From NCBI GenBank assembly GCA_023231475.1, contig JALJEE010002126.1:29894-93893 (forward strand): DNA of 64,000 bases, given 5' to 3'. Source of the DNA: Seison nebaliae. Its lineage: Eukaryota; Rotifera; Pararotatoria; Seisonacea; Seisonidae. The translations under genes and the position numbers were made by a program. Below are positions 13,706 to 64,000 of the stretch, one piece after another. How positions within the stretch are numbered: position 1 is the stretch's first letter; the number at the start of each line of letters is the position of its first letter. The notes under the pieces are model-generated. The model was not told where the DNA came from and did not search any database. It saw only the letters and a list, made by a program, of their open reading frames with translations.

Positions 13706-15922
13706 ATGAGTGATGTGAAGGAGAACCGATATGTGAGATTGTTGAAGGATTTCGGACGGAATTTCTCTTCTCATATTTTCATTTGGTCCGTCGGTTTTTT
13801 CGAATATTCTTCCGTTTGGATTATAGTCTATTCGGCAATGGTGATTTGGAGACGTGAATATCAAAAAAAAAGAGCAAGACGACGTCAATTAGCTATAAAT
13901 ATTGGAGAGGATGAAAATGAGACGATTTTGGCGAGAATCGACGAATTACCAGCATGGGTCTTCTTTCCGGATGTAGAACGTGCAGAATGGTTAAATGAAA
14001 TGATCAAACAAATGTGGCCGTTTATTGTAGTATATGGGAAGAAAGTGATTTTGGAAACGGTTCAACCAATCCTCCAATCGAACACAGCGAAGTCTATTCA
14101 TTTCACTCATATTGATTTGGGTGATATGCCACCAAGAATTGGAGGAATAAAAATATATCGTGAGAATACTCGACGAAATGAAATCATCTTAGATATGGAA
14201 GTAATGTTTGCATCAGATTCACGATTCCAATTAACTTTAGGACATATGAATGTGGGTGTGAATAATTTGCATGTTAGTGGGCAGATTCGGTGCATTCTAT
14301 CTCCACTCATCTCTCGAATCCCAATGTTTGGTGCTATAAAATTATTTTTTCTTGAAAATCCAATCATCGATTATGACTTGACGAAATGTGCCTCAATATT
14401 CGATGTACCAGGAATTGGAGATATGATAAGAAATATGGTAGTGAATACCATTTCTTCTTTATTCGTTCTCCCTAATCGTTTCATTTATCCAATAATCGAA
14501 GATGTTGATATAAATGAATTGAAATTCTCATTAATTGATGGAATTATTCGTATCGATATAATCGAAGGAAGTGATTTACCAGAAACAGATATTTTATTAA
14601 GTCGACATACTGACGCATTTTGTGTGATGAATATCGGTCAACAAGAATTTCAAACGAAAGTTATTAAAAGTAGTTTAAATCCGAAATGGAATGAGACATT
14701 CTTCGCTATCGTCGATGATATGAATGGTCAAGTGATCAATATTGATATATTAGATAAAGATTTCGATAAAAATGAAGATATTGGAAATTGTCAAATTGAT
14801 GTTCGACGTTTAGCATCTGAAAAGATTATTGATTCATGGTATACGTTAGAATTCGCTAGATCTGGTCGATTACACATTCGAACGATTTGGTGTGATCTCC
14901 TCACCATCATTCCTCATCCCACCATCAATTATCCATATTCATCAATTCTGATGGTTTTCGTTGATTCATGTGAATCGTTACCGATGACGAAGAAGAATGG
15001 TCATCGATATGAACCATGTATTTTCTGTTCAATGACGATGGGTGGGAAGAATGAAACGACGAATGTTGTGATGAATACGACAAATCCGAAATTTGAAAAG
15101 AATTTCCAATTTTTGGTAGAGAATGCGGAAGCGGAACAATTACATATTGATATTATAGAGACGAAAGGAGATAAGAAACAATTTGGTTTTATTGATATTG
15201 CATTGATGGATATAATCCGTTGTGATGAAATGAAATTAGAACGATCATTTCCAATAAATACAAATCGTGGATCGATGAAAGATGGAAAGATTCATCTCAA
15301 AATGATATTGAGAGGAATTCAACAAACGAATATTGTTCGATTAAATAGTTTCAATAATGACACCATTTCTTCCAATCAATCTCTCATTGATGATAAATTG
15401 ATAATTGATGAATTAGATGAAAATATGAAAAGATCATTATCATTAGAAGAGAAATCGACAATTGTTGAGAAGAAATCATCGATGGATGAAGAACGTTCGA
15501 AAATTGATGAAATTATCAATAATCCAAATGGAGTAGTTAATTTCTCTATGTATTATGCTGCGGCTAGTAACAGATTTATTGTTCGTATTCATGAATGTCG
15601 AAATTTACCATTTGCTCATGACGATGACGAAGAATTGCCTGATGCATTTATCAAAATATATTTACAACCTGGAAAGGAATATAGTGATAGGAAATGTACG
15701 AAAATTCATCAGGATAATATCTCACCCAAATTCAACGAAATGTTCGAATGGAATCTCTCTCTCGAACAATTGTCCAACAAGAGAGTTGTGATGAGTGTCA
15801 GAAATGAGAAATCCATTTTCTCCACACAGAAAAAGGTGTTGGGAGTAATGGAAGAGTCTCTCTTCAAATTCCGAACTCAATTGACATACGATAATTTATG
15901 GAGACGATTAGAGAATGAATAA
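13706..15922 (+). CDS. ESYT: Extended synaptotagmin (ER-plasma membrane tether)
   Basis: Intronless gene for 738 residues. E-Syts anchor in the ER, tether it to the plasma membrane through C2 domains and move lipids through the SMP tunnel. Seen: a hydrophobic hairpin at about residues 23-48 followed by a basic stretch (RREYQKKRARRR); the SMP domain about 75-265 (ERAEWLNEMIKQMWPF, IHFTHIDLGDMPPRIGGIKI, VPGIGDMIRNMV); C2A about 272-395 (GIIRIDIIEGSDLPETD, NPKWNETF, DILDKDFDKNEDIG); C2B about 408-525 (NPKFEKNFQFLV); a Ser/Glu-rich linker; and C2C about 608-738 (ECRNLPFA, SPKFNEMFEW). This is the three-C2 layout of invertebrate E-Syt and vertebrate ESYT2/3. Many acidic Ca-binding positions remain in C2A. 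Poly(A) signals at 15985-15990 and 15998-16003. Confidence 0.94.
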   Translation: MSDVKENRYVRLLKDFGRNFSSHIFIWSVGFFEYSSVWIIVYSAMVIWRREYQKKRARRRQLAINIGEDENETILARIDELPAWVFFPDVERAEWLNEMIKQMWPFIVVYGKKVILETVQPILQSNTAKSIHFTHIDLGDMPPRIGGIKIYRENTRRNEIILDMEVMFASDSRFQLTLGHMNVGVNNLHVSGQIRCILSPLISRIPMFGAIKLFFLENPIIDYDLTKCASIFDVPGIGDMIRNMVVNTISSLFVLPNRFIYPIIEDVDINELKFSLIDGIIRIDIIEGSDLPETDILLSRHTDAFCVMNIGQQEFQTKVIKSSLNPKWNETFFAIVDDMNGQVINIDILDKDFDKNEDIGNCQIDVRRLASEKIIDSWYTLEFARSGRLHIRTIWCDLLTIIPHPTINYPYSSILMVFVDSCESLPMTKKNGHRYEPCIFCSMTMGGKNETTNVVMNTTNPKFEKNFQFLVENAEAEQLHIDIIETKGDKKQFGFIDIALMDIIRCDEMKLERSFPINTNRGSMKDGKIHLKMILRGIQQTNIVRLNSFNNDTISSNQSLIDDKLIIDELDENMKRSLSLEEKSTIVEKKSSMDEERSKIDEIINNPNGVVNFSMYYAAASNRFIVRIHECRNLPFAHDDDEELPDAFIKIYLQPGKEYSDRKCTKIHQDNISPKFNEMFEWNLSLEQLSNKRVVMSVRNEKSIFSTQKKVLGVMEESLFKFRTQLTYDNLWRRLENE

Positions 15923-23132: not shown

Positions 23133-23317
23133 AAGAAAGATATTTATGAGTGAAATATACGAGAAATAGAGAGATAAATATTGTTGTAAAGAAGAGGAAG
23201 AAGTGAATAGTTGGAGGAATTTCCATTCCGAACTGAATCGATTGGAGAATTATCTTGAAAATAATTTTGAATTTTATGAATTGATAAATATCAAATCGAT
23301 CGAACTTCTTCTCAGAC
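20516..23317. other. Intergenic region, 2.8 kb
   Basis: Starts with a T-rich region (to about 21050) whose open frames on both strands look like shadows of homopolymers. The part from 21540 to 22650 has more balanced composition and might hold regulatory sequence or a non-coding transcript, but I see no specific signal. It ends with a GA tract and a CTTCTCAG acceptor-like site two bases before the ATG at 23318. Confidence 0.5.
23103..23129. repeat. (GA)n tract upstream of the ELM2-SANT gene
   Basis: About 27 bases of alternating GA within a wider purine-rich block, about 190 bases before the start codon. It may lie in the leader or act as a GAGA-type promoter element; the second is inference. 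Confidence 0.85.
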
Positions 23318-26284
23318 ATGTCATCGTCAGCATTTGTACCGATGAATTTCGTTTGTGATCAATTGATCAATGCGTTGGAGAATGATCTCTCTAACAATAT
23401 TTCATGGGATGATGAGACGATTGATCTTGATGCCGTTTTGAATGAAGTTGATGATTTGGTGACTGAGAAACGATCTTTCTTGACACGAGAAGAAACTCGT
23501 AAACTCTCCAAACTTCATTTTGATGATTCGATTTTTATGGAGAGCAAACCGAAATTACACGTAAGATTTACGGAGAAACGGAAAAAAGTGGAAGTGGAAG
23601 ACGATGATGATTATTTTAATGAGAACGATTTACCATCAAAAGAGTACGATTATGAGAAATATCGATATGAGAGAATGAAAAAGAAGAAGAATAAGAAGAG
23701 ATTTAGTAAAAGTAAAAAAGCTGAATCGACTTGGACTGAATCGAAATTATTCGATTTCGAACGAGACGATGCTAATGAAGAAGATGAAGACGCTCGAGTT
23801 TCCATCGGACCCGAATATCAGGTGGATGTGGAAGAATGGACAATTGACGAAGAAACTAATGATGAATTAAGGAAATTGTGTGTTGATCGTGAAGATGATT
23901 GTTTATGGAATAATCGATTATATGAAGAGACATGTGACACAATTTTACCAGATCATCAATCTGATAAATTGAATGAATTCCGCACAAACATTTCTACGAG
24001 ACTCATTTCTGATGAGAACGAATTGGAAATTATTGAAAATTATTCAAATAAATTACTCAATTCATCACTAAATGCTCAATTAGTGAATTCAACGCCGATA
24101 ATTAGCGATTTCGAAAACCGTCCACCCAGATATGAAAACGGTTTATTATCCGACGATGAATTGATTGAGGAGAAGATTTTGAATGGGAAAGACATGCGAT
24201 TGAATGAGACGATGATTAAATATTCCTCATTGATCTGTTTGAGTAAAGAGGACATGTTATTCTTCCTTCAAATATTCGATTATGACGAAACGGATTTTTA
24301 TGAATTTTTGAAACGATTTCATGAAATCGAACGATTAACAATTGATCGACATCAAACAATTTCATTGTTAACTGATGATTGGAGTTATGATAGTCAGGAA
24401 TTGTTCGAATTAGCTTATGCGACATATGAGAAAGATTTCGAACAAATTGCAACATTATTTCCAGATAAATCATTTCAATCCGTCGTTCGAATGTATTATT
24501 CGAGAGATTTGAAATATGAATATGTCTCCGAAATGGATATTCGTGCAATCGATGTACGTTGTAAAACGTTATTAGAATTCTTATTGAATCCATTTCAACA
24601 CGTACCAACATCATTGAGAGGAATGAAATTATTATCTCATGCTCTTCATTTATATCGATCAGTCATTATGGAATATCGGAAGGAACATGAAGAGAAATTT
24701 ATTAATGAAAAACATGGTCGTTATAATCATGGGAGACGACATGTTCTCAAACATCATCGTGATAAAAAACAAAGAATTCTCTCAGATAATTTAAATCGAG
24801 ATAGATGTAATACCGAATTAGATATTCAACGAATTTTGGAAGATGATGAAAATAAATTTGAAATTGATGAAATTCCTGAATCATTGAAAATTGATGAGAA
24901 TGTAGAAAGACATTTGAATGAGACTCTGAAAGAGATGGAAGATAATACGGATTATTCACATCTCATTAAAAACCGTCATCAACGGAAACCGGGAAAATTT
25001 AAAAGTTTCTTAAAATATGTTCGATCGTCGAAACGATCGATTTTGGTGGAGAAGTTTTATGAGAAAATACGAAATCAAAAATTTATTTATTTCAATCACT
25101 TTTATCTCCAATCTCAACAAATCATTTCGATGGCACTCATTTTCTTCAGTTTCTTCTATTGTCTCGAAAACGATTGGAAGGAGATTATGGGACAAATTCA
25201 GAGTTTTCTCGAACCAGAATTCCTTCATAGTTTCCGTTCGGGGAAAGATTTGAACGAAGTTTTCTTATTATTTGATGGAATTCTCGGACTGTATCATAAT
25301 AAATGGAAATCATTGAAAAATTGTAAATTCTCAATGAATTACATTTCGATGATTCATCTCTATTATATTTTCAATTCGACCGATTTCCAATTATTGATGT
25401 ATTCGACGATATTTCATCCGTTGAAACATTTGAATAGATTTCGAGCGAATTTTATCAAATTCAACAAAAAATCAAAATCTACATCAAATTTATCTTTATC
25501 GACGATTAGTTCGATGACGAATGAACAATCGATACCATCGTCATCCTCATCGTTGTGTGTATCGTCTCCATCGTCACCATCGTCATCGGGAAAGCTGGTG
25601 AATAATCAGGAATTGTTTGTTGATCATCGAGTTCAATTGTTTCATCGTTCTCATAATAATAAGAATTTAAATTTCATGTTAAGTGAATGGCGAATTCAAT
25701 TGTTGATGTTAATACGACGGAAAGCGGTGACAGATAAAAATTTTCAATATCTCCTCAAATGGAAATTGTCGACATTGAAATTGATGAAAGTTTATTGGCA
25801 GAAATTAATAGGAGTCAACGAGAGAATTACTCATAAATTGAACGAACGTTATATGAATGAAGATCAATTTTTTCTTCTCTATTATCAATATTATCCACTC
25901 TTTTATTGTTATCAATCAGACGAGGAAGTTTTTATCACTCTAATCCAAAATGTTCTTCAATCGGATTTGGATGAAATGAAAGAAGTTCATTCATCCTCTC
26001 AAATGGACAAGAATGAATATCCTCATTTATATTTCTTATTGATTGTTGAAGGATTGATTATGTGGAATGAAATATTTTCATCGTCATATTTCTCTATGAA
26101 TGTCACGAAGAAATATCATCATATTAATCAAAAGAATCATCAAAATATTTTATCAATTCCTGATAGTAATTCAGATAATTATTCGGAAATCGATTTTGAA
26201 AATCTTTCAAAAAATAAAGAAAAAAATGACGAACATAATATTGATGAAATTCTCAATCTTTATCGTGACAATAATAATATTAAT

Positions 26285-26340
<56 letters not shown>

Positions 26341-29300
26341 TTGTGGAGGGAATTTCGAGAGATCAGTGAATGAATTGAAACAAGAAATTCGTCAATTGCG
26401 CAAAGATGTTCAGAAGGAGATCGATGCAAATATTTCATTCGCTAACAAAGATCTGATTAGTCGGAAGGAATTGGAGGAATACAAAATGGAGAAAAATGGA
26501 CAGATAATCAATAATGGAATGATTAATGGAATCATCAAAATGGAACCAGAGGAAGTGAAAGTAGAAGATGAAGAATGGACGTTATTGACGTTACATGATA
26601 TCGTTCGAAGTATCGGGAAAGAATTTCTCTGCGAATCATTCCAATTGTTTCTAGTGACGAGAAAGGATTATGTTAACGGTAAATATCCGGGTGAATTAGA
26701 AACTATCAAATTCAATTTAATGACGTCATTAGAATCGTCGGATTTTATCAACGCACCCATTACACTCAATTGTCAACAATTCACACAAATCACTCGACAA
26801 TATGAACAATCTGTTACACGCGATATGGAACATCTTTTCTTCTTCAACAACGACGAGGAATGGGAACAACGATTTGTTGAGATCAGTCAACAAATCGATA
26901 ATTTATCGAAATATGTGGAAATGATGAATGGTGATGAAGAGAATAAAGAGAATGGGAAATCTGATAATAATAATGGAAATATTTTGGGAGGGATTAAAAT
27001 GAAAGAAAATGATAAGAAGAAATTGATGGAATTGAGTGTTGAAGGAATAACAGATATGATAAAAATGAGTGACAACAATTACATGAGAAAGACACCAGAA
27101 CAAATGGATTATATTCAATCAGAAATTATGAAAATTGATTTTAAATTACAAACAATTTCCTCTCAACTCGAATTCAGACGTCAAATGCCTAATGAGAATT
27201 ATGGCGATCGAATTCGTCGTTATATTCAAACGAAGAAGAAAAAATCGAAAATTTCTACGTCTTTCTCTTCACATTCCTCTTGTTTCTCGTCATGTGAATC
27301 GATTCTTCCACATTTCTCTGATTCCACTATCTACTCAACTAGTGATGGAGCATTCGATGATTATGAGAGTGATACTGAATTTTTTCAACGACGACGACAA
27401 ACTGATTCATCCGATAATGATTCATCTAAAGACGATGAAGATGAACATGAAAATGATGAAGAGAATGAGAATGAAGACGAAGAAATTGATGATGATGATT
27501 CCAGATTTGATGGTGGTGAAGCAGATGATGAAGAAGAAGAAGATGTATCAAAAGAGAACTTAGAGAAAGATGATGATGATGATAATGATAATGATGATGA
27601 TGATGATAGATGGTTTACAAGTAATAATCGAAATGGACGGAAACGACGAATTTCTGATACGGATTTGAATGGAAAACCGAATTTCTTTTTAGAAAAGAAA
27701 TTGAAAGAAAATGAAGAAAAGATGGAAGAGGAGGGAGAAGATGGAGATGAAACGATAAAATCTCTTGATGATAATGATGATGATAATATATCGGAAGAAA
27801 CAGTTTTGAAAAAGAAGAAAATCCGACCAGAATATCCAGATGAAACGAAAGAATTTGAAGAGTTGAAAGAACAATTAGTTTCATATCATCTCGATCAACA
27901 AGATCGTCGACAACCAAGTTTAACGGAGAAAGACATTAATTTATTACTTCAATCGTCATTTTTATCAATTCCATTTGAATATGATTCGTTGAAATCGAAT
28001 AAATTATCTGAAGATAAATCGGATGAGAATAAATCGATTGAATTGAATGAATCATCTCTAACTGTGAAATCATCAGAATTATCATTTCCATTCGGATTTT
28101 TAGAAGGAATCGATTCGAGTGGTCGTCGTGAAGATTTGGAGAAATTAGTAAAAAATTTTGATTATAAAAAAAATGAGTTTGGTGAATTATCTGATACGGA
28201 TACTGTGTCAGATGGATCTGATACAGCAAATAATATTTCATTATCTCTCATTGAACAAAGTTCATTGAACGAACCATTTGAAACATTATTTATGAGTCAT
28301 TTGAATGGAAAACGATTTTATTCGGATCAGAAAATTTTAGAATATTTATTAAGTCATCATAATGTTCCTCATGAGATTGGAACGACAACAACCGCCACAG
28401 TCACCACTTCATCATTAGACGTTTCACTTGAGATGGCGAAAGATTATCAAAATTTATTATTATCAGAAAAAGGTTTTGATGAATTTCCATCAAACAGTTT
28501 ATTTGATGATGATTCAATAGATGAGGAAATGCCACCATCATTATTGACATTAGAACAATTTGAACAATTGTTCAATATTTCCAATAACATTAATAATAAC
28601 AACAATGTAATTGATGAGGAGACGGTAATGAATATTTTGAATAATTTGACGGAATATGATATGAATGTTCTTTATGATATTTTGCCAATGGAGAATATTA
28701 TGAATTTATTTAATGGAAATGATGATAATGATGATGATGATAATGATAATGATGATGATGGGGGAATAAACGAGAAAAGTATTCGTGAAAAAGAATGTTT
28801 ACAACTTCTTCCGACTGATTTGAAATTTGGATCAAGATCGAGACGAATGTGTCCAGGAAAGACGAAAGCTAATATTCTTCAACCATTACGTGAAATTCAT
28901 GGATCTGCTTCCATTTTCGATCGTTATCTTTTCGAACATTCTAAACGTGTATTTGATGAAGCAGCAGCAGCAGATGTAACAGAAGATGAAATGATGATTG
29001 ATTTTGAAGAAGAGAAAGAATTATTTGAAGATAAAGAAGTGAATGAATCGATTGCGAAGAAATTATGTCAGATATGTAAACGACCCGTCCCAATTATTTA
29101 TCATCCAGTTTCTTTCATTCGAAGTGTAGTTCATAAACGAGCGAAATCCATTTCTAATATTCCAATCAATGATAATAATCGATTTAATACTCGACCACAA
29201 CGAACGAGACGTCCAATAATTCCACATACACCCACTGAACCGATTAGAACATCGACACGTCCAAAACGACGACGACGACGACGTCAAAAACGACGACAAC

Positions 29301-32300
29301 AACAACAACAAATCATTCCTAATAGAAAGACGACGAGAACGAGAAGAAAAGGATTTTTGAAAAAAGGGAAAAATTCAACAAAGAATAGAACCGTCGCCTC
29401 TACCAGATCACAATCTGAAATGACAAATAGAAGGAAAGTGAATGAATTGTCATTGAAAAGACGGCGTTTAAATTCTTATTCAAAAAACACTTCAGAAGAT
29501 GATGAATCAATAGAGAAAGAAGAAGCGAAAGGAAGAAATCGTAAACGACGGAAATCGACGGAAGAGAAAGGGATGAAGAAACGACAACAAATCGGAAGAA
29601 GAGTCAGAAGACAATTGGACTCGCCTCAATCAACAATCTGGTCACCAAAAATTAATGAAGATGAAGAAGAATATTCAGAAGGTAAAATTAAAGAACCATC
29701 ACGACGGAATATGAGATTGGTGAATAAAGACGATCGACCAATACGACGGAATTCTAATCGAAGATCACGTTGGAATTTGAAAACGATAAATGATGAAGAG
29801 AATCGATGTCGATTACGTCCACGATCAACTCGACAAGTTTGTTATTCGGAGACATTTAATGAAAAAGATTCTGATTCAGAAATCGATTATCGGAATGTGG
29901 ATCAATTGGACGGTTATGCGACATTAGGTCGACAACGACGACGTAAAAATTATAGACGTGTAGGACAAAAATTATCATCATCGAAAAATCAATCGAAAGA
30001 GGAATGGACTGAAGAGAAAAAAGTGAGATTGAAAGGAGGAAAGAAGAAATTCTCTCAATTCGAAAAATCTTTGGCACTTGGTGCGAAAAAAGAAGAATTG
30101 GATGATCCGAATATTTATCTTCGATGTATTCGAAGTCGATCATTAATACCAAGTGGTGCTAGTATTGGTACTGCTCAATTATTGAATAATTCGAAAATGG
30201 TAGAATCGTTTAATGTCCGTTATATGGAATCGATTAGAGGATCACGTGATTTTGATGGATATTATGAGAGACAATGTCATTTGATTCATCAAATATTCCC
30301 ATTTGAAAGAGAAGGAATTATTTTAAAAAAGAGATTGAAAGAATATTGTGATGAAGAGAAGAAGAGAGATAAATTCAATAAAATCTTCCTCTTTCCAATT
30401 CGACAATTTAATAAGAAATTAAATAAATCAACGAATAAATCGATGAAAAGATCTATTGATGATATTATTTTGAATTATCAATATGAATTGAAATTATCTT
30501 CATGTCAATTACCGAAACATTTATTCAATTGTATCGATGAATCGATTTTGTTATCAGATGATGATATGGAAGTGAAAGTGAAAACAGATAATCGAAAAGT
30601 TGATAAAAGAAAGAAATCTTTCATCAAACCAGAAGAAGATGATTCGAGATCATTCCTTCTTATGGACGTTCCATTTGATCGAAAAAAAAATAATTTACCA
30701 TTCATTCAAGTCAATGAGAAAGAGAAGAATTTGGAATTAATTGGTCATTTCACTCATACGAATTCGAAAGAATTAGATAAAACTCTTTATTACAAATCGG
30801 TTTTAATGGAAAAAAAATTGATGGAATTGCCAATTAAACACCATCGACAATATCGAACAAATGAATTGTTTTATAATTCTGATGATCAATTGAAGAATGA
30901 GAAGAAAAAGGTGCAGGAACGACGGAGACGATTCAAAGAATTTCTGATTGAAAATAAGAAATTTTTAGAAGAGAATTCTAAAAAGAAAAATTTGGAAATA
31001 TCGTTGGATATGAAGATGAATGAGGAGATGAATTTACCCATAAATGGAAAAATTGAAGAAAATCAAAAAATGGAAAAGAGAAAGAAGAAGAAGATGGAAA
31101 TGAAGAATTCATTCCAATTGAAAAGTGGAAAATATGAAATTCGTCGACGATTCCAATTGAAACAACGAGATAGTGAAGAAGAGAAGAGAAGAAAGAAAAG
31201 AATAATGAAGAATAAATTAGAGAAAAAGAAAGAATTATTTGAGGAGAAGAAGAAGATGATGATGATAATGAATGAAGATTATGTTCCCTGTCAACCAACA
31301 GATTTCCGTTCATTCGAACTTGATCTATTTGGAAGAGATATGAAAATAAATCGAAATTTATTTCAATTACCATCATCATCGAAAGATGAAGGAAATGATG
31401 ATAATAAGAATGAAATTAAAGATTCATTTTATGACGTAGTTCCATTCAACAAAGAATTCATCTTAAGAAAATGGAAAGATGAAGATTTGGGAGGTAAACA
31501 AAAAAAATTACCGGTAGAATTGACGATATGGAAAGAAGAATTGGAAAAAATGAATAAAAGGAAAATGAAGAAGAAGAAGAAGATGGATAAAAGAGAATGG
31601 AAATCACAAATCACACATCAAGATCTAAATAAGATGATGGGACTGAATCGTAGAGAATATGATGAAGTCACTCAATTCGAAATGACACCATATCAAGGAT
31701 TGATTTGTCATCGATGTCTAACGAAAAAGAGAAATTGGAGAACCGTCAACAAATTAATGGAATGTCGTTCTCGTTCGAATGATGAGAAGGAGAATGAGGA
31801 ATTGATGGATAAGATGAATATGGAATCAGACGATTTTAATGATATTGGACATGAATGGGTGAAATTGTGTAAACCGTCACGATGGGAGAAATTGCCAGTA
31901 TCGTTTAGTACAAATTTTTTTTTTTTTTTTTTAAAATTTCCATTTTTTCTTTTAGAGAAATGAATAAATCAGAATATGATTCTAATCGTGATGTGATGAT
32001 GGTGGATTTGGATGATGATTGGTTACCATCTTATCAAATAGAAGTAGAAAATTTCCGTCATTATCGACGACCATTTCCCACAACAACAATCCCGTCGATC
32101 GACGTTGATAAATCAAAAACGTTTTTTTTTTTTAATTTTTTTTTTTCAAATTAATTAACTTTTGTTTTGTTGAAGAATTGTGACGAGGGAATTACCATAT
32201 AGTCGATTTATTAGAGAGAGTTATCAAAAGAATTTCTCCTGTCTGTTGTATCAGCAGAAGTTGGTGGAAGATATTCGACGAGATTATTTATCGAAATTTC

Positions 32301-44300: not shown

Positions 44301-45506
44301 CAAACAGTTCACTGCAGTATTAAGAAACAACGGAAACATTATCAGCGAATCCGTTCTCTTCGTTTCATTTTTCTTTGTTTAGTTGCTGTTTTACTTCGAT
44401 TCCTCTTGAAAAAAAATTTCATTTTTTCTTTCACGAGAATGATGGAAAAATCCTGTTTTCAGCTTCAACATGATGGACATCGAATTTGGTCAGGGGCGGT
44501 GAAAATATTTGTGTGCGGGAGAATGAGAATAAGTGAAATGTTAGGGAGATCCGATTGCGTTCAATTATTAAAACGGTTTCCATTTGTCCATGTTCTCCAA
44601 TTCGAATAATTTGTTGCAATTATAATAATTGGATAGTATCGAATGGAAGGAGAAGGGAGATGTATATCATTAAACATTATCGTATTAATTTAGATGGAAC
44701 AACTGTTGTAGCGAGAAACGACAGTTGACTGCTTCCGGAATATGTAATAAAACGATTAAATGTTTTGAGTAATGTTTTCGTGACGAATCAGTTTTCATTG
44801 TTTCATTTTCTTCTTTTATCTTCCCAATTATCAATCGCCATAGAGGCGAGATCTAAGACAGTTTCTCACCTTACATGGACGATATGATGTCATCGACATA
44901 TGAAGGAGTAGGAGGATATGAATTCGTTTTCAAAAATGACGATCCTTAGAAATGTTTCCGTTATTCTATCGGTGAAAGTTCTTAGGAAGAGAGAAATGTG
45001 CAAATATTCTCCCCAAACTCGATTTTCTATCACGAAATTATAGATTGGTTGGGAGAGCATTGATTTTCGATATTTCTCATTTCATTAACTTTCCATTCTC
45101 TTCTCATAAATATTTCGATTTAGATTAAGTGCTCCACATTAAAATCTGAGATCAGTCCTTGTCAAATCGAACATTTTCTTGCTGTTCTAACTTCATACCT
45201 TTTCCATTTCTTCACATCTTTCCGAAATTTACTTGTTGAATGAGAAAGATGTCGATGTGTCGCAAATTGACGAGTTTTATGAGAGAAGATCGAACGAGAG
45301 ATTAATGAGTAAAAGATTTTATTGATGTTTTAATTTTTTATGTTGAACATATAAATTTGGTTGAAATCAATAATGTTTAACACAACTTTCCCAGGTATTC
45401 GACAAATAAAAACAGATTTTAACTCGTTTTTTTCTTTATAGAATTTTCATAGAATATATTTTAAAATCATTCAGAAAATCGTTCGGTGAAAATTTGTGAT
45501 AATGAA
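38353..45506. other. 7-kb gene desert upstream of POU4
   Basis: The longest gene-free stretch in the window. The section 38400-39700 is very AT-rich; 39900-42050 and 42750-45000 are more balanced in composition. Short open frames (39089-39304, 43200-43507, 44298-44609) have no family support. Octamer-like sites occur at 42511-42527 (TAATTATGCATAAAT) and 44246-44253 (ATTTGCAT), which chance alone could explain. The likely content is the POU4 promoter, leader exons and regulatory elements; this is inference. Confidence 0.5.
39883..39907. repeat. Perfect 10-base inverted repeat
   Basis: GATGAAAGAT, a 5-base loop, then ATCTTTCATC. No coding frame covers it. It could be a protein-binding palindrome or a chance hairpin. 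Confidence 0.8.
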
Positions 45507-45920
45507 ATGAGTACACCGTTTAATCCAAATGGAACGAATGCATCCAATGTGAGTGTATTGTTAAATCGTATGAATGGGGATATTGATGAGAAAGGATTGA
45601 ATGACTATTATCATCAGATCTATAATTATTCCAATATGACAAATGAGAAGTGTGCGAGTATTAAACAAATGAATTCGGTACTTCAATATCCCAACCGATC
45701 GACGAATGATCGCAAATTATTCGAAGCAGATAATAAACCAATGAAATGGGATTTATCCAATTATTATCAACCATTACATCAATCACTCGAACAACAACAA
45801 CAACAACAAAACATTTCAGAAATGCCACAACAAATCCAGACGATTATTGGGAATGATGATCGCGAAACGAATTTAATGTCCTCCATCCAATCATCAAACA
45901 ATAATAATAATATTAATAAT

Positions 45921-45954
<34 letters not shown>

Positions 45955-48900
45955 ATAATAATAATAATAATAATAATAATGATAATAATAATAAGAATAA
46001 TAATAATAATTTCGAATTGGTGAGTGGAACGGATAATTCGTTCTTGACGGCCATGATGATAAATAACGGTAATAATATCGATATGAATAATCATGAGGGG
46101 AATGGATTGAGAAGTAAATCTAATAAGTTTGTGCATGATGCTAAAATGACGAATAATTTAGGAATCAACGAAACGACTAAGGAGAACATCTCCACAAACT
46201 TTTTCCATCAAACTGGAAATAATGACGATAATTATTTATTACAATCCAATCTCAATCCATCCACAATGACCTTAACGAACATGACGAATGAGGAGATTGA
46301 GAGGAATGAAATGGCAAATAATAATTTCGATGAGGAAATGAAATTGAATAATGTCCATCAATTGGATGACAGGAACAGTAATCAGAATTCGATGAGTAGT
46401 GAAGATTATTTAGAATCTAATAAAACCAGTTCCATTTCGTTGGTGGATGGAAAGAAGACGAATGATCAAAATAAAAATGAAGAAAAGACGAAACAAACGA
46501 AAAGTAAAAAAGGGAGAAGTTGCAAGAAAGCCACGTCGTCAATGACGACAACCAAAAAAGATTTTACAAACAATCGATCTATCGATTATTCAACCATTAA
46601 TGCTCAACAATACTTCCTTTCGTTAGCGTCCTCATTGGCCGCCACGAATTACTCCACTTCATCCATCATGAGAGATGCGAATGATCAATTTCTTAATTAT
46701 TCCCCCGGAACTGAAAATTTCCCGAATAAATTAAATGAGAATTTCTTTTCTAATTATTTTGTCCAGTTCCCCAATACCATCAATTCCACCACACAACTCT
46801 TTACATCGACCACCGCTCCCGTTTTTAGTTCAACGACAGATGTGCAAGGTGCCGGGCAGACGGATTATTGTAATCAAATCAATAATGATGAGAATCGATC
46901 AACGAATATTATGGAACCGAATGAGAATCAATTGGAAGCGAATCAAATTGATTTGAAGAGATTAGCGGAACAATATCCATATTCGGAATTGCTCGGTTAT
47001 ATCAATAATATCGAGAATAATATCTATACATCAACATCATCAGAAAATATGATTGATAATAAAAATTTGTTAGGAACATCAACTTGTGGTGGTGGAGACA
47101 ATTCAAATATGACGAATTTAGCTCAAACGAAAATTCAATCAGCTCTTGGTTCGATGTTGGAACAAGTGAATGGTGAAGAAATGAGGAATAATGATTGGAA
47201 TAAAAATGTTTTCAATTCGAGTGGAGGAGGAGGTGGATGTGGTGCTGGAAGTGAAACCGGAGGAGTAACTCGAACAACAGAATTTCCAAACAATTTGAAT
47301 GAATCTACAAATGAGAATTTATTCATTAATCTCTTTGGAAATATCAATCCAATTTCAATAACAACTACTACCACTACTTATATGCTTCCAACAACATCGA
47401 CAACAATGCCAATGTCGAATCATCTCATAGAAACGAGAACTAGAACAACGACGAATAATTCGTTGGAGAATGATGGAAATCATCAGAATTTACAAACCAA
47501 TTGCACCACTAACCAAATGATGACGAATTCGGAATTATTACAAAATCAAGATGAAACTAATCCGATGTTCGCTTTCGATACGACGTCATCAGTTATGGCC
47601 CTTTTCCATCAATTGAATTCCGCATCAAATTTAAATGGAACTTCACCCAATTCTATTACATCATCAACATATGATGATTTATCGACTAATAATCTTTATA
47701 ATTCACTTTATAATCAAGCCACATCACAACTATCTCCTTATTATTTCAACGGATTAAATTGTACCAGTTATTCGACGACTCTCCCATTCCAAACTCCATT
47801 CTTTTCATTTCCATCTTATTCTTCACTACGATCCACATCTTCGACAACATTACAATCCAATTATCTTCTTTCACCTTACTACTCGTACATGACGTCGAAT
47901 TCGAGTCTGTCGGGTTCATCAGCCGTCGCTGCTGCTTCATTAATGTCTAATCATTCTTTAAACGATCCTCATGAAATGGAAACTTTCGCTGAGAAGTTCA
48001 AACAGAGACGTATCAAATTAGGTATCACACAAGCTGATGTTGGTCAACAATTGACAAAGTTGAAATTACCAGGAGTTGGCTCACTATCTCAATCGACCAT
48101 TTGTCGATTCGAATCATTAACATTATCTCAAAATAATATGATCGCTTTAAAACCGATCTTACAAGCTTGGTTAGAACAAGCGGAAGCTGAGAGTTGTGCT
48201 AATACGACGTCATCGATTTTATCTGGAAATCATTACGGACAAAATGGAACATCGATTAATCATCGATTATCATCAAATGTCGTTTCCAGTCAAATGAGAG
48301 TGAACTTTCGAATGATGGATAACAATTTCTATGGACGTTTCGACACGTCGAAAGTTCTCAATAAGAAGAAAACGACGAAATCGACAAATGGGAAAAAGAA
48401 TGAGAAAAATGGAAATAAATCGGGATATTCTCAGAATAATAATAATAGTAAAAGCAGATCGAAAAACTCTTCGATATCTTCACAAGCACCATCGTCTACA
48501 TCGACTTCCAGTTCGTGCACCACAATAACAACAACAGGAAAATCATCATTCTCCACAACTGCCACAATACCAAGTGATTCCAATTCGATATGTCACAATT
48601 CGAAACAGGATTTTAGTTTTGGAAAAATGAAACCGACTTTGGGAATTGACGATCCGAATTTACTACCAACACTTAATAAATTGAAACGAATCGATTGTAT
48701 TCCATCAATAGCAGTTTCTGCAATGTCAATTAATAACAAGAGTTTAATAACAACATCATCATTACTCATGCCATTAACATCGTTGAATTGTTCGAGTGCA
48801 TTATCATCATCATCATCATCATCATCATGTTCATCAAATATTACTAATAATTTAACACCGTTATTACCATCAACAATAACAGCGTCGACAATGAGAACGG

Positions 48901-50492
48901 GTTCATCATCGAACTTATTATCATCAAATGTCCTCACATCCAATTTGTTCGATTCTGAAAAACAGAAAAATTATGAATTCTCTGATAGTAATCGAAAGAA
49001 ATCGATTTATCAATTACAACCATTTATAATCAAATCGACATCATCATGTTCTTCAACGTCATCTTCATTAAATTCATCTTCATCAAAACAACAACAACAG
49101 TCAGAAGCATCAGCGTATTCGATATCATCGGCGTTACCATCTTCGACATTTGTATCAACTTCATTTCCCACAACACTCTCCCAATTGATATCGAGTGATA
49201 CCCAAATGAATATCGATCATATATCTACGAAAGTGATAGATGAAATGACGAATATTAATTCATATCATTCATCACCACCTCAAAATAATAATGAATTTTC
49301 GATTATCCCTTCATCATCCACGTCATACAATAATAATCATGCTCTCTATCAAGAACAAGAACAACAACAACAACAATTGTCGTCGTTCGAGAATAATTCA
49401 TCAGATCAATCGATGCAGTTCTCGATTGCATCTTATCCACAAGCCAATAACGAATTAATGAACGATAATGAACAAACAAATAATTTTTCTGAATTATTCA
49501 AGTTGCCACAACAATCCTGTGAATCGAAAGTAGCGAAAAATAATTGTTCATTTGAGAATTTGATTGTGGAGAAAAGTCTCAATATTTTCAACAACACAAA
49601 CAACAATATTGTTGAGGATGTGAAGAGTACGAATGGGAATGGTATTTCGACTGAAACTAATTTCAATCCAGATAATTGTTCCACGAATATTATGAAAATG
49701 GAAAATAGTAAGAACAATAACAACAACAATCACCACAGACAAGTAACCCCACCAATATCTATTAGTGATACATCATCTTCATCATCATTCTCTGTAACAT
49801 CGTCATCAACCTGTTTATCGCCAACATCCAGCACTTCCTCTCGTACCAATTCCACTAATTCCCATAAATTTGATGGTTCGAATGATAATCAGAATGAGAA
49901 TGATAGTCGAACATCAAAGGATAAGAAGTCGATGGATAAAGGTGGGAAGTCGTCGAAATCCAAACATTCGAGACTAAACGAAGACGATAATCAATTGAAT
50001 GACAAGAATGCGAAGAGAAAACGAACTTCAATTGCTGCACCAGAAAAACGGTCGCTGGAACAGCATTTCCTTTTACAACCACGTCCTTCGGGTGAGAAGA
50101 TTGCTCAAATTGCTCAAAAGTTATCGTTGAAAAAGAGTGTGGTGCGTGTCTGGTTCTGCAATCAGCGACAGAAGCAGAAACGTATGAAATTCGCAGCTGC
50201 CACTAACAACATGAATGAGACACAATCGAATAAATTGATCAATTCTTATTCGAACACATTAGCCGCTGCCGCAACACCCAATTATTCATCCATTTACGCA
50301 TTAGATACATTTAACAATCAGAGTTCTTCATTGATCTATAACACTAGTCTCTTGTCCACCAACGTCACAACTACCACTACCACTACAACTGATGCAGAAA
50401 TGATGGTTGATACGAACAAGCAATGGAACGAACCATCTTCTCAATCAACCAGTCAGTCAACATCCAACAACGTCACTATGAACGGATTCTAA
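45507..50492 (+). CDS. POU4: POU class 4 (Brn3/Acj6/UNC-86) transcription factor
   Basis: Intronless gene for 1,661 residues. POU4 factors specify sensory and other neurons. The POU-specific domain at about 822-894 reads METFAEKFKQRRIKLGITQA and later GVGSLSQSTICRFESLTLSQ and ALKPILQAWLE. The homeodomain at about 1504-1562 reads RKRTSIAAPEKRSLEQHF and ends VVRVWFCNQRQKQKR. Both are clearly class 4. In other animals about 20 residues separate them; here about 600 Ser/Asn/Thr-rich residues do. The N-terminal 820 residues are Asn/Ser/Thr-rich with poly-Asn. The start is ATG 45507, since upstream codons in frame offer only GTG. CAG and TAG acceptor-like sites lie in the leader. Poly(A) signal AATAAA at 50620-50625. 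Confidence 0.95.
45895..46011. repeat. (AAT)n microsatellite coding poly-Asn in POU4
   Basis: Imperfect AAT run read as Asn with scattered Ile, Asp and Lys. The antisense open frames over it are shadows. Confidence 0.95.
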
Positions 50493-55464: not shown

Positions 55465-58400
55465 TTATTGCACTTCGATGTTGAACGGACTTCCTGGTAT
55501 GTGATCTTCGCCCCATTTCACGACTAACACGTAAAGTCCACGTTCTTTTACGGTATATGAGACGATATATTTGTTGTTGCCTTGATGACGGACATGCAAC
55601 TCTTCACATGGATGTGTTGGTCCATAAATGCCAACCATTAACATATTATTTCCTGCTGATGTTGTATCGACATTGAATGATGATTCTTGACCAATTTTCG
55701 CGTTTTCCAATCCGGGTCCAAATGCACGTACATTCTTCGCGTCACCATGTGCACTGTCCATCAGTTTTCTTTGTTGTTGAGTTGGTGTAATACTATCAGT
55801 TCCGTTGAATCGTTGTTGAAATTGTTGATATTGAGATGCTGCGCCCATTGATGAGGATGTAGTGTTCGTTTGCATATGCTGCTTCTCTACCGTCTCAACG
55901 ACAAATACACTTTGCTCCTTTGACGCATATGGTGACGACGGTCGTACTTGTAATGAATTTGGTGATGTTTGTATCATTGATTGATTTGCATAATTCAACG
56001 AATCTACTTGTTGCTGTTGTTGTTGTTGAGTGCCGAATACGTGACATTTGAATGGAGAACTTGCAATGTTGACACCACCGAATTTGATGGTAATCAAATA
56101 ATCTCCTGGTGCGGTTGGTGTATAAATGACACGATATCCTTCTTCTGTTTCATGACATTCTAATGTCACTTTTGATGGTCCATCAACTGTGATAGCTAAT
56201 GCACCAGCACCAGCATTTAATGTGTTAACAATGAAATATGTTTGTCGTCCACAATCACATTGATGAAGACCAGGTCCATAAGCACTTACACGACCGGGAT
56301 CACTTATAGCATCTCCAACAACCACACGGAACGGTGATTCTGGTATGGGCGTACCATTCAATCGAACATGAACCCAATGAACACCATTTTCATGAGGAAT
56401 AAATTTCACACGACAATGACCATCGCCCATATCATCGATAAGACCACGTTCCTCAATACCCGACGGTGAAACGATGGAAGTAGTCAAATCACCAACAACT
56501 CCATTCATGTCAACAGTAAATGTACATGGTTTGTTCGCTTGAACTGGTTTCTTTATATTCTCCACATTTAACCGTCTTGCATCGCCAGCTGGTGGTGACA
56601 CATAAACCGAATAAGGTGAATCAGGAATATGTTCATCATTGAATTTGATAGCAACTTGATATTGACCCGGCTCACCACAAACATATGTCACGCCACAAGT
56701 TCCATCTTTACGATCTTCAAAATTTATTTCTGCTTTTGCCGGTCCTTCTACCGCTATCGATAAACCGCCAGCTCCAGCTTCACGTGTATAAATTGAGAAT
56801 TCATTAAATTTGTTAACTTCTCCACGAACCAATCCTGGACCATGTGCGTGTACTTTGTACGCGCCACCCCCTTCAATTGGACCAACAGTAAATTCGAAAG
56901 GTGAACCCGGAATATGTGTATTACGATGTTTCACACTTACTTTATGTACTCCCATTTCTTGTGGTACGAATTTTATCGAATAATTATTATCATCCAACGA
57001 ATGGATACCACACGCTTCCGTTCGACCACTTGGAGCGGTGACATATGCCGAAAGATCTGGAGAATGAACTCCAGGAATTTTCAAACTCAATTCACACTGA
57101 GATCCGATATGTGTCACTTCTGGATTGGTGGCAGTTCTCTTGATTATTTCTCGTTGTTTATCTACTCCCTCTCCAACAACTGGTACATGAAACGGTGATC
57201 CTGGTACTGGTTTATCAGCAAATTTCACATTTATCACATAATTTCCTGGTTCGGTCGGTCGATAAGTCACACGGCATGTCCCGTCTTCATTATCATGACA
57301 TTCGATGTCAGCTTTTGATGGACCTTCGATCGATAATGATAATCCGCCATATCCGGCGTCTTTCGTATTGACTGTAAATTCGTTGAGTTCGTTCGTTTTT
57401 CCTGAATGGAGACCAGATCCATAAGTTCTGACACGATTAGCATTTCCAATTTCTGTCGGTCCCACATGAATATTGAATGGACTACCATTAATTTGCTTAC
57501 CATTCTTAAAGACACTGACATAATGATCACCAACTTCTCGTGGTGTAAATGAAATTCCAAGAGTTCCATTCGACAATTTCTTTAAAAGACACGGCTCTTC
57601 CTTACCACTGGGTGCTCGAATATATGCATCCAATTCATGTACATTTGTATCATCGTCTAACTTCAATGAAACTTCAGAAGCATTTCCAACAGTCAGATAT
57701 GCACGTTTTGGTGAATAAGCCGTACCAGATGATGGTTGTACTTTCGATAAGAATGGCGATCCTTGAATATGTTGATCGGCGAATTTTATTGATAAATGAT
57801 AATCTCCAGGTGTCAACGGATAATATGTAACATCACATGTACCATCCTTATTATCATGACAATCAATTTCCGCTTTCGATGGTCCTTCAACTGCCAATGA
57901 CAAACCGCCAGCACCAGCATCTTTCGTAATGATTTTAAAATGAGCCGGTTCACCAGACACTCCACTACTAAGACCAGGTCCATGAGCTGATACATATCCT
58001 TTCGGTAACGCTTCCACATGAAATTTGAATGGTGCACCAGGTAATGGTACTCCATTATGATTCACTTGTAATTCATGAATTCCGATCATATGTGGTTGAT
58101 ATCGGACGGAAACTGTTCCGTCAGTATTATCTTCCATTATCGGTATTTCACGTTCTCCATTCGGTGTAATGATTGTTGCATGTAATTCGGTTGATGGAGC
58201 GTTGACCGGTAATCGTAAATCAACTGGTCGATAAGATGTCGTTTTTCCATCCCAATTCGATGGTGATTTACTAATCGAATGAATTGATGGTTGTTGTGGT
58301 ATATTTTGTATTTGTGATTGTTGTGTTGGTGAAATGGTTGATCGATTGATATGAATAGGAGTCGCCGTTGTTGATGGTGAATATGGTTGTTCGTTTTCAT

Positions 58401-61400
58401 TCTGATAAGAATTCTGTGATGTAATACTTGCATTCAATACCGGTCGAATTGGTGATTGATGACCAGATAATGATGTTTTGCTCGTATGTGACATTGACGT
58501 TTGGGGAGATATTTGATGAACAGGTTGTGGCTGTTGTTCGATAATTGGTCGAGTATATTTGTCAATTACATTTACTGTTCTATCACCATTCTTCACTGGA
58601 CGTCCTCCGAATAATGTTTCGATTTGATGAGGTCCATTCATGACGGGCGTATAGAAAATATTCACATTTCCATCACCAACTTCATCGACTATCAATGGGA
58701 TTGGTCGACCGGTTGGATCGCGAATATTACACGTCAATTTCCCAATTCCTCCTTTCGATGTATCAGCTGTAATTTTTTGTTCTTCATGTATCTGCACTTG
58801 TGGATTAATACCCGAACCATAAACATTGACATTTTCAGCGTCTCCTGTCGCATTAGCGAACAATTTATTCGGTGTCTGAACATTCTCATTTCCATACAAT
58901 ACATCCAAATCATAATCTCCAACATGAGGTGCGGTAAATGAGACGTCGAATGTTCCATCATTTCTTCTCTTCATATCGACCGGTAATAATTGATTCGTTT
59001 TATTATCATTCACTTTCACTTTGATCTCTTCATTTCCTGCATCTCGAGAATCGATATTGAATGTTGTCGGTAACGACGCTGTTATATTCGGTTTCAATCC
59101 ATTCACTTTCACCAATCGAGCATCACTACTGGGATGTACTTGTGCGGGAAATGGAGAATTTGGCAATTTCTCTCCAGCCCATTGAACATCGACAGCGTGA
59201 GGTCCCTCCGCTGTTGGTAGGACAGTTGCTGAAAATGTTCCATCATTATTCTTTCGAATTTGTGCTGGTTTCCTTCTACCAACCGGATCGATCAATTCTA
59301 CATATGGTGTCAATGATGCCTCGTTATTGGGAGTGGCAGTTCCTGCATTGCGACCATCAATCACAAAATCAGCAGGAACATTTTCTCTTAGAATTTGATT
59401 TGGATATTCCACTTTCACTTTACTCGCGTCAGCCATATCATTAATTTGGACTTTGAATGGAGATCCAGGAATATGTTGCTCGGCGAATTTGATGGAAATA
59501 TCATATGCACCCGATTTCGTCGGTAGATATTCCATCGTACATGTTCCATCTCGATTATCTTTACATTGCATCTTCGCTTCACTCGGTCCTTCAACTGCCA
59601 ATCCGAGAGAACCTTGTCCAGCACCTTTCGTCTCAATTTTAAATTCTTGTGGTACATTTGTAATTCCACCATACAAACCAGGACCATATGCCTTCACTCG
59701 AGCTGGATCACAACCACGTACTGCTCGTACTGAGAATGGAGATCCAGGAACTGGCATTCCTTCGTAAGAAATATCCAATTGATGTTGACCTTCTTCGAAT
59801 GGAACATATTGAACTGAATATGTTCCGTCGCGATTATTCTTGACTGGACATGCGGCTCGCGTATTCTTCGGTCCAGTGATCTCACATCGTACTTCTCCTT
59901 GTCCATTCGAAGTAACTGCACGTGCATCAACTGTAAATTCACTTGGACTATCTAAGAAGACTCCTGTGAGAAGAAGAAAAAAATGGATTATGATCAAATC
60001 GTTTCAATGATGGAATAATATCTCATTCCAATTAATTCTCTCATATACTTTTTTTTTTGGTTTAGTTCCAAATGAAAATTCTTCGTATTTGATTAAATTT
60101 TTAACATAGAGCGAAATTAAATTAGGAAAAAAAACTTAAGAAAAAGAGTAACATGTTGAAAATATTTAAAAAGGGAATTATTTCAAAAAAAATTATCAAA
60201 ATTCAGCTGAAAAAAATTAAAAGAAATCTTTTGAGATTTTCATTCGTTTTATCATCTCAATAAAATGATAAAAGTTGATAGCAAGCAATTATTAGATTCT
60301 CAAATAATAGCCAAAGTAGCTGTAAGAATTCCCTATCAAATTATTTGACTCGCATCTGAGTCTTGAGAGTTGTTGAATTAGACTGACTAAATTCAAATCA
60401 GTCCAATTGTCAACTTGTTTTTTCTTTCTTTTTCCTATGAAGTCAGTTGAGCTGATTAGAAAATAAATTGTATTATTGATTTCCTCATGAAATTCTTTCA
60501 TAATTTTCATTTCATAATAATTATTTTCTTTTTGTTGTTGTTGTTGTTGTTTCTGGAGATATGTTCATTAAAGTAGTATAGCAATTATTGCACTTCACCA
60601 AATCTTATGAATTTATAGCACGTTAAAGAAAGAACGAAGAAGAAGAGAAATGTTGGAGGAGGAAAGATTCATACCATCGGGTGATAATCCAACTCCATAA
60701 CATTTAATTTGAGAAACATCTAAATCTCCAGATACATAAGCGTCGAATGGAGAGCCTTTCACATGTTGTCCATCATGTTTCACATTGATCTTATAATCGC
60801 CCACTGAAGTAGGAGTATAAGTGATTCGTTGTCTTCCATATTTGTCTTCGTCGCTCTTCATTGAGGGACATGTCGGTCCTTCCATGGTCACTTCAATATC
60901 ACCATCTAATTTCGAATGATGTGGTCTCGATTTCATATACGAACTATTTCTACGATTATTTAATGATTCATCTCCATATTTATCATAAGGTGAATCATAA
61001 TGAATGGAAGTATAATTTCCATCATCTCCTTTCACATAATCACCTTTCACATCCTCCACATATTCATTGTTTTTTTTCTTATATCGTTTCTCCACGATAG
61101 GAATCGCTTCACCTTCCTCATTCTTCACGAAACATCCACTCTCGTCTGGTATGAGATGACCAGACTTATCATAATCGAACCGTTTCTTACCCACATGAAT
61201 CGGTTGACCACGATCGTTCAAAATATATTCGCCATTATGACTCGGTTTAAATTGACCGTTCTCGTCGATTGAATAGCGTTGACGGTTTTGTACGTCAATG
61301 AATGGATCCATCCAATGTGGATCTCTGATGAATCGACCGAAATCATCAGCAATCAATCCACCACGTCCATCATCTCGATAACGTTGAGCTCCCACTGGAA

Positions 61401-64000
61401 TATATTCCTGATTCTTTTCATCAAAAATAAAATCACCAGAATCATCTTCCACAAACTTTCCGTTTGGTAATCGTTTATACCGTTTCTTCAGATACGGAAT
61501 TAATTCATTATCATCATTCATAATATAATTACCATCAGCTGCTTCTACAATTCGTCCGTCATCCATCTTCTTATATCGTTTCTTCAATAACGGTTTTGGA
61601 ACGACAGAATGTTCAGATTTCGAATCATCTCCTCCATTTCCACTTTGTCTCATATAATTTCCATCTTTTGATTTAATGAAATTATTTTGTTTGTCAATTG
61701 AATATCTCTTCTCCCTTAATGGAATAAAATTACCATCATCATTACGAACATAATCACCATGTTCTGATGGAATGAATTCATTTCTCTCATTCTTTTCGAA
61801 TCGTTTCTTTCCCACATTTATATAATTTCCTTTATCATCTTTCACATAAATTCCTTTATCATCATCCACATTAAATTTACCATCCACATCCTTCATATAT
61901 CGATGATATTCATTGACTGGTATTAAACATCCACTACTATCTCTCACAAACGAACCGATATCATCATCACTTGATCGTGTGGGTATTGTTCGTCGTTTAC
62001 CAACTAAAATGAAATCTCCTTTTTTGTCTGAAACATATTTGCCATCTTTGTCTCGTACAAATTTACCAGTATCATCTTTCCGATAACGTTCCTCTCGATC
62101 AATATCAATTAAACTTCCATCACCTGTCTCCACGATATTGCCCTTCTCACTCGGAATAAGATTTCCATCAGAATTTACTACATATCGTTCTGGTCGACCA
62201 ACACGAATTAAATTCTTATTTTTATCTTTAACATATTCACCTTTCGGATTTTCATAGAATTTTCCCGATTTCTCATCTAACGAATAACGTTCCTTCTCTT
62301 TACGATCTATCAAATTTCCGTCATCATCTTCCAAATATCGATCGTCAGGTCGTCGATCTCTTGTCGTACTTCCTTCTTGCTCAACACACGTTCGACGTTC
62401 TGGACCGATATCGATGAAATTTCCTCGACCATCTGAAATGTAATTACCTTTTGATGATGGTATTAATTTTCCTGTAGAATCAGGAACATATTTCGGTTGA
62501 TCGACACTGATGAAACGACCAGTGTCATCATCACGAACAAATTCACCGTTTTCATCTGGAAAGAAATTTCCTTTGTGATCTGTTGTATATCTCCGTTTTC
62601 CAACATTAACAAAATTTCCATAATTATCTTCAACGAAATTTCCGTTATCATCTGGAATCATTTTATTCGTTTGCTCATTAATACGGAATCGTGGACGATT
62701 CTCTAAATTGATGGTATCTCCATCTTTCGTTTGAATGAAGGAACCGGTTGTGGAAGGAATTGTCGGTTTTTGTTTTCGATCAATAATATCATGTCGTTTA
62801 GGTCCGATACAAACATAATCTCCATGTCCATCTGATACATATTCTCCGTCGTCAGCTCTGATAAATTTCCCGGTAGGATCTTGATGATATCGTTGATTAT
62901 CGATTGGTACTGGTCGACCTTCATCATTTTTGACAAAATGTCCTTTTTCGTCTTTGACTAATTGTCCATTCTCATTATAAGAATATCTCGGTTTGCCAAC
63001 TCGTATCAATTCGTCACCAGATTTGATATATTCTCCTTCTGATGATGGTTTTACATTTCCATCAGTTTCATCGATTGTATATCGATCTCCAATTCGAGTA
63101 TCAATTAATTTACCATGATCACTGATAATAAAAGAACCGTTAGATGATGGAACGACTGATAAATTATTATTATCATCAAATTGAGATGGAAAATAATCAT
63201 CATCTTTTTTCTTATCGTCAATTGTTTTATATCGTTTTGGACCGACATTAACAAATTGATCATTTTTATCTTTTATAAAATTTCCATCAGTTGATGGAAT
63301 AAATTCATTTGTTTTCGTATCTTTTTTATAACGTTGTTGTTGTTGAATAGGAATCATTTGATTTCCATCATCTGATTTGATGAAATCTCCTTTTTCATCA
63401 GGAATAAATTTATTTGTTCGAGAATCTTTTCGATATCGAGGACGTCCAATATTCATCACATTTCCTTTATCATCTTTTACATATTCTCCATCATTATCTG
63501 GTATTAAATTATTTGATTCATTATCAAGTCGATATCGTTTTGTTTTTTCATTTAATGGTAATAAATTTCCATTTTTTGTTCTTACAAAATCTCCAACATC
63601 ATCTGGACTATATTCTGTTAATTTATCTGAAATTCGAACCATTCGAGGACGACCAATCGATAAAATATTTCCATCATTATCTAATACGAATTCTCCATTA
63701 TCATCCTCAACATAATTTCCATCAGAATCGATCGCTAATCGTTTTTCATCATTTAAATTTATTAAATTATTTTTATTATCTAAAATGAAATTTCCTTTTT
63801 CTGAAGGAATTAATCGATTCTTTTCATCTTTAATATATCGAGGACGTCCAACTCTCAACAAATTTCCTTTTCCATCATTTATATATTCTCCTTTATCATC
63901 TTCTCTCATTATTCCATCATCATCAATTCTATATCTTTGTTTATCATCAATATTTATCGGAATTCCATCATTATCCAATATCGTATCACCCACAACTTTC
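55465..64000 (-). CDS. FLN: Filamin (actin cross-linker), C-terminal part, with novel repeat array; partial
   Basis: Filamins dimerise and cross-link actin, also binding membrane receptors. Visible minus-strand exons are from beyond 64000 to 60675, and 59963-55465, joined in frame (phase 1). The second exon codes about 1,498 residues: 13 full filamin Ig repeats, a Ser/Gln hinge (about 58210-58560), a second hinge with poly-Gln (about 55745-56030), and the last repeat ending GSPFNIEVQ, equivalent to the dimerising Ig24. Repeats show the family AGxGxLSxxVEGPSKA, DGTCxVTYxPTxPGxYxIxIKF and IPGSPF motifs, and alternate in type as in vertebrate Ig16-23. The upstream exon has only the C-terminal half of one Ig repeat, preceded by about 1,000 residues of unrelated 33-36-residue repeats. 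The actin-binding calponin domains must lie past the window edge. Confidence 0.95.
59964..60674 (-). other. FLN: 711-base filamin intron
   Basis: Joins codon pieces G and GA to restore the filamin YGVGLSPD-GVF-SPSEFTVDA linkage. It is the longest intron in the window and the only one inferred with a GTA donor (GTATGA). AT-rich; a 72-codon frame inside has no support. Confidence 0.85.
61005..64000 (-). repeat. Tandem 33-36-residue repeat array inside filamin
   Basis: About 29 protein-level repeats are visible and continue beyond the window. A typical unit is RYRKDDTGKFVRDKDGKY then VSDKKGDFILVG. Within a unit, D-x-x-G-x-[FYL]-[IV] recurs about every 8 residues, suggesting stacked beta-hairpins. 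Unit boundaries alternate almost strictly between [VI]G-[KR/P]-x-R-Y and I-[PD]-x-x-x-x-R-Y, so the true period is a two-unit block of about 67-70 residues (about 200-210 bases). DNA copies have diverged, so the array is not a recent expansion. I do not recognise the repeat. Confidence 0.9.

Follow-up and report, generated by a model that had tools for sequence, protein, structure and literature searches.

A filamin gene of Seison nebaliae, a tiny epizoic marine rotifer, contains a long tandem repeat array in its coding frame, with filamin sequence on both sides of the array and one half of the same filamin Ig domain, Ig8, at each of its borders. The explanation we prefer, at a probability of roughly one half (0.48), is that the array is an insertion within one domain of a bona fide filamin and that it forms a looped-out lateral repeat arm. 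Filamins link actin filaments. If this explanation is true, an Ig loop that accommodates a repeat of ~1,500 residues would offer an extreme natural experiment on how domains accept insertions and on the mechanics of filamin.

Gene structure across the contig break

The window, by which we mean the whole 64,000-nucleotide stretch of DNA analysed, comprises positions 29894-93893 of contig C18, and its right end is the end of that contig. The filamin gene lies on the minus strand, where an open frame at 60613-63999 runs off the window end and encodes 1018 residues of array and linker followed by filamin sequence. A preliminary description of this DNA had proposed that the array is built into filamin, and this was borne out: the open frame runs into Ig8, and filamin sequence is found on both sides. 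The window part of the insert (60907..64000, minus strand), delimited by the open frame, the repeat statistics and the border, consists of array residues 1 to ~1000, numbered downwards from 63999, and of a short linker that leads to Ig8. The array had been described as ~1,000 residues from 61005 to the window end. It is in frame and does reach the end, but the insert begins ~100 bp lower, at 60907, and continues on a second contig, C677 (positions 1-1598, of which 141 bp are shared with the window). Next on the minus strand are the second half of Ig8 (60721..60906), from DGDIEVTMEGP, and the start of Ig9, which ends the array exon (60675..60720; from the sequence and the deposited protein). 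An intron of 711 bp within Ig9 (59964..60674, minus strand) has GT...AG splice borders in accord with the deposited protein SNEBB_011398, and the last exon (55465..59963, minus strand) completes Ig9 and encodes more filamin Ig repeats before ending with the stop.

The two parts of the gene stand on separate contigs. A search of the genome with the array gave matches on C18 and C677 only, and no other array in the genome. The start of C677 is identical to the last 141 bp of C18 (63860..64000 in the window), which places the assembly break within the array, and a genome search with these 141 bp reported two places, the C18 end and the C677 start, and no third. The exact overlap fits a break in a k-mer graph; the largest default k of MEGAHIT is 141. 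We have assumed a MEGAHIT origin of the present assembly record (36.0 Mb, 846 contigs), the size of which differs from those of both published assemblies. According to the available text of the Seison genome paper, the published assemblies were built with MEGAHIT and have sizes of 43.9 and ~99 Mb (PMC8351084). The difference in size, and the position of the break in a repeat, could be taken to mean that C18 and C677 derive from different genes or that the array was misjoined. We regard this as extremely improbable, however, given the exact 141-bp overlap with no third match reported, an Ig whose complementary halves flank the array, the lack of any other array in the genome and the in-frame run of the array into Ig8 within the window alone. 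Nor, in what was testable, was there any sign that the array belongs to a separate gene, a possibility that the preliminary description had raised.

C677 carries the start Met, two CH domains (4526-4840 with 83.7 bits and 4178-4477 with 71.9 bits; cut-off 26), Ig1-7, the first half of Ig8 and the first part of the array. Six Pfam Filamin stretches lie in the first exon of C677, with Ig7 and half of Ig8 recognised as well, and 14 lie downstream of the array (55558-59964). The last Ig, the domain through which filamins dimerise, follows a Q-rich linker in the deposited translation. The protein thus has the row of Filamin-type Ig repeats and the N-terminal actin-binding domain of two CH domains (two Pfam stretches) by which filamins are defined, the assignment of the two-CH domain depending on the C18-C677 join. 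Because C677 supplies the start, both CH domains and Ig1-7, the sequence argues for a real filamin of ~4,070 residues across the two contigs (~4,074 as 1467 + 30 + 2577).

The GenBank annotation divides this filamin at the array, and the C-terminal part is labelled 'hypothetical protein'. In a database search with the array the deposited model of the gene was found as "hypothetical protein SNEBB_011398 [Seison nebaliae]". This model begins at a Met within the array (window 63909), and the start is most likely an artefact because the Met is internal and close to the contig end. The other deposited protein, P0002, terminates within the array (C677:3), so that both models take in array sequence. 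The word 'filamin' occurs 0 times in the available main text of the Seison genome paper (PMC8351084). Among the matches listed (120 of 2457), the only filamin named as rotifer is the product of this gene.

Several other genes lie on the plus strand of the window. An open frame of 1675 residues (45465-50492) has a POU-specific domain (834-907) and a homeodomain (1517-1573) that are 609 residues apart; linkers between these domains are usually far shorter, and the frame may represent another large insertion in Seison or an intron read through. Two open frames at 3949-7149 with AlaDh_PNT_N and Sacchrp_dh_C domains are probably one lysine-degradation (AASS-like) gene. The open frame at 13700-15922 combines three C2 domains with an SMP lipid-binding domain and resembles an extended synaptotagmin. 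The one at 23288-31963 is single and intronless and encodes 2891 residues, among them long runs of N, of D/E and of K/R.

The repeat and its predicted structure

Residues 1-1018 (63999 down to 60946) have 0 stops in 1018 codons, for which the chance is 1e-41 given the base composition, and the other five frames have 43 to 167 stops each. Unit-to-unit identity is 0.51, 0.62 and 0.41 at codon positions 1, 2 and 3, against chance values of 0.29, 0.33 and 0.35. The lack of stops, together with identity that is highest at codon positions 1 and 2, shows that the repeat is kept at the protein level.

The strict motif D-x-x-G-x-[FYL]-[IV], which had been proposed as an 8-residue sub-period, occurs 29 times in residues 1-1018, whereas 1000 residue shuffles contain it 0.23 times on average and never more than 3 times. 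The autocorrelation of hydrophobic residues (0.44 at lag 8, 0.30 at lag 16 and 0.26 at lag 33) likewise upholds it. A profile made from 10 C677 units scores the window array at 530.6 bits, and the best shuffled array at 20.3 (936 of the 1000 shuffles returned a score); with this C677-only profile 25 window stretches exceed 10 bits, against one in all 1000 shuffles together. The repeat of 33-36 residues that had been described is a real tandem repeat, but its unit is 32-33 residues, that is, four 8-residue steps, and its core has 32 profile positions and is longer only with insertions. Two linker types, [VI]G and other, alternate as proposed, in 25 of 27 steps; none of 100,000 shuffles matches that. 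These steps come from 28 window linkers listed by hand, with the first and last excluded. The majority consensus of 30 clean units (20 from the window and 10 from C677, hand-picked with irregular units excluded) is RY..D..G.F.PD..G.YI.DD.G..I.VG.., in which the middle G is kept in 30/30 units and the other two G in 22 and 21. Profile stretches number 30 in the window and 16 on C677, with 2 in the overlap, giving 44, some of them partial or weak. The nested periodicity of the preliminary description is present, to which our reading of the profile matches adds a higher-order super-period, in which three regular units are joined by one irregular unit. The super-period starts are 129-151 residues apart five times and then looser. 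After regular units, irregular ones occupy residues 119-154, 256-305, 402-436, 534-570 and 670-699, and the grouping is looser afterwards. The array may be a chain of some eleven beta-rich modules, most of which would combine three regular units with one irregular unit that resembles a hinge.

The alignments supplied to AlphaFold2 consisted solely of this gene's repeats. The model of one super-repeat (129 residues, 11 rows) has a pLDDT of 82.9 and a pTM of 0.54, and that of two super-repeats (263 residues, 7 rows) a pLDDT of 76.3 and a pTM of 0.42. Both models, which are of single chains, have strands of 3-4 residues about every 8 residues at low global confidence, and agree with the earlier wording 'beta-hairpin-like'. 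Per ten residues, pLDDT is 86-96 in the regular triplet of the single model and 82-93 and 73-91 in those of the double model, and 34-70 in irregular units. Fold searches with both models gave no significant match. The array might instead lack a fold and be a charged chain that is mostly disordered, as its polar composition, the two pTM values and the fold searches could indicate. We consider this improbable, since the hydrophobic period of 8 is strict, one G is kept in every clean unit and, in both models, the first regular triplet has a pLDDT of 82-96 in blocks of ten residues. The array is mildly acidic only (177 K+R vs 202 D+E, pI 5.35), and the term 'acidic' spacer was an overstatement. 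Metal binding had also been suggested; an EF-hand-like calcium-binding repeat was rejected, as the D-x-[DN]-x-[DNS]-G loop is found once in 1487 residues and is not recurrent.

With one super-repeat, 38 of 50 matches listed in the viral fold search are named adenovirus fibre (19 of the first 20), and 13 of 50 listed from the PDB were adenovirus, reovirus or phage-like fibres. We take these fibres to be triple beta-spirals; triple beta-spiral fibre shafts are trimers. This raises the possibility of a similar shaft formed from three chains or from three stretches of one chain. We think it very unlikely, because the viral matches have E values from 0.0071 upwards and a query TM of at most 0.19, and the best PDB match has E 0.49, none of them significant. 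The longer model also gives a different PDB list, in which an IFT-A chain (E 0.0041) ranks first and a choline-binding esterase (E 0.012) next, with TM 0.11-0.12 and with fibre shafts absent from the top. In addition, filamins are known as dimers. On these models we take the array to be a modular beta repeat.

No family in Pfam, NCBIfam or PHROG has a passing stretch in the array. The Fascin domain was rejected: its whole-protein Pfam score is 23.3 against a cut-off of 23.1, but 0 stretches pass, and it matches none of 11 super-repeats at E up to 1. A PDB sequence search with the array gave no match, and no bacterial or archaeal relative of it was found. Two protein database searches gave no other match among proteins of ~560-4979 residues sharing enough 5-residue words, one of them scoring just the 7988 candidates that shared most words, and no literature title was found that describes such an array. 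The family and database searches gave no named repeat, a result that would have counted against the preliminary description, and the protein, family and fold searches made gave no convincing match to a recognised family or fold. The repeat itself may be a new family; the gene itself is a filamin.

Insertion site and possible function

Filamin sequence stops at ...NKPNHFFID on C677 and resumes at DGDIEVTMEGP in the window, and the insert between them has ~1,517 residues (17 + 1487 + 13). The second half of Ig8 is recognised by Pfam Filamin (E 1.3e-12) over profile positions 38-92 of 93 only and was aligned with the same Ig of other filamins. When the array is omitted, the Ig8 halves and their neighbours align straight through in 119/119 other filamins among the matches listed (120 of 2457, minus this gene; none is named as rotifer). 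Opposite 20 residues of this gene these have 23 (36 sequences), 25 (73) or 26 (10), only 3-6 residues beyond the joined halves in every case. None of the 119 has such an array, which agrees with the earlier view that it is foreign to known filamins. The array thus lies within Ig8, with one half of the domain on each side, and not between Ig domains; the site falls between strands B and C.

Among the matches listed, the Ig8 halves have mean identities to other filamins of 34.6% (n=115) and 30.5% (n=118). The values for Ig9 and Ig10 (n=119 in both cases) are 39.6% and 57.9%, and that for Ig7, with n=12 only, is 26.2%. Ig8 is therefore less conserved than Ig9 and Ig10 and more conserved than Ig7, for which there are only 12 alignments. 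The identity retained suggests that Ig8 has not decayed to noise, and is our main reason, not a strong one, for supposing that Ig8 still folds. If it does, the two ends of the array meet at a single point of the domain, and a looped-out side arm becomes more plausible than an in-line spacer. The simple spacer of the preliminary description fits badly with this arrangement. For the array to form a serial link from Ig7 to Ig9 that makes the filamin longer or softer, the Ig8 fold would have to be lost, so that it is unfolded as a single domain. The conservation of Ig8 below Ig9 and Ig10 is in keeping with such a loss, and a hinged chain of modules would give a long linker. A decayed domain would not need to keep recognisable halves, however, and since both Ig8 halves can be recognised and align with the same Ig elsewhere, we consider an in-line spacer unlikely.

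It has also to be considered that the array is optional, in that some transcripts lose it by in-frame splicing and encode an ordinary Ig8. A GT on C677 and an AG in the window, near the borders, would join in frame as FFIDRKHPLRD-DGDIEV, and the product is near the loop length of other filamins. With 6 GT and 10 AG near the borders, however, an in-frame pair is expected by chance. The candidate sites look weak (by eye, unscored), the intron would be ~4.4 kb next to a neighbour of 711 bp, and the deposited models include the array. An optional isoform is for these reasons quite unlikely.

In the looped-out arm that we prefer, the ~1,517-residue tandem repeat of short strands occupies a site, between strands B and C of Ig8, that has just a few residues in other filamins; the domain would close around the insert and the array would loop sideways out of the first rod of filamin. 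At rest it would bear no tension and might act as a large lateral arm, used in binding or in spacing. Such a role has a precedent in filamin C, whose 82-residue insert in Ig20 serves for binding and targeting. The array would join the load path only if Ig8 were pulled open, which could release up to ~0.55 micrometre of chain (1,517 residues x 0.36 nm, our own arithmetic). A lateral arm would be the simplest role, and a force-released length the bolder one. We speculate, as a doubtful extension, that a lineage-special beta-repeat fold has grown in one Ig loop, as a side arm and then as a force-gated reservoir of about half a micrometre once Ig8 opens. The host animal has a very high loss of core genes, according to the part available of a published study (PMC12256650).

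Relation to known systems

Viral and phage fibre shafts likewise consist of repeated short strand-turn units and made up many of the matches listed in two fold searches; they have no significant match to the array and are not inserts in an Ig. The C. elegans FLN-2 and Drosophila jitterbug proteins are, like the Seison protein, divergent filamins with long intervening sequences. Going by the available descriptions, they have three CH domains and the additional sequence between repeats (PMC3143143), whereas the Seison protein has two CH domains and an insert inside an Ig. Closer in position is vertebrate filamin C, in which, according to the available text, an 82-residue insert in Ig20 is a binding site for myotilin and targets filamin C to the Z-disc (PMC7216277). 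That insert is also inside a filamin Ig domain, but in another one, and it is ~18 times shorter than the Seison insert, to which it is likened by description. In overall plan the gene resembles the filamin/ABP280 family with two CH domains (cheerio, FLNA/B/C type), with which it shares the Filamin Ig row and linkers between late Igs, and its best alignments, among the matches listed, are to molluscan filamins. The Seison protein differs from that family in the ~1,517 residues inserted in Ig8 and in its total of ~4,070 residues.
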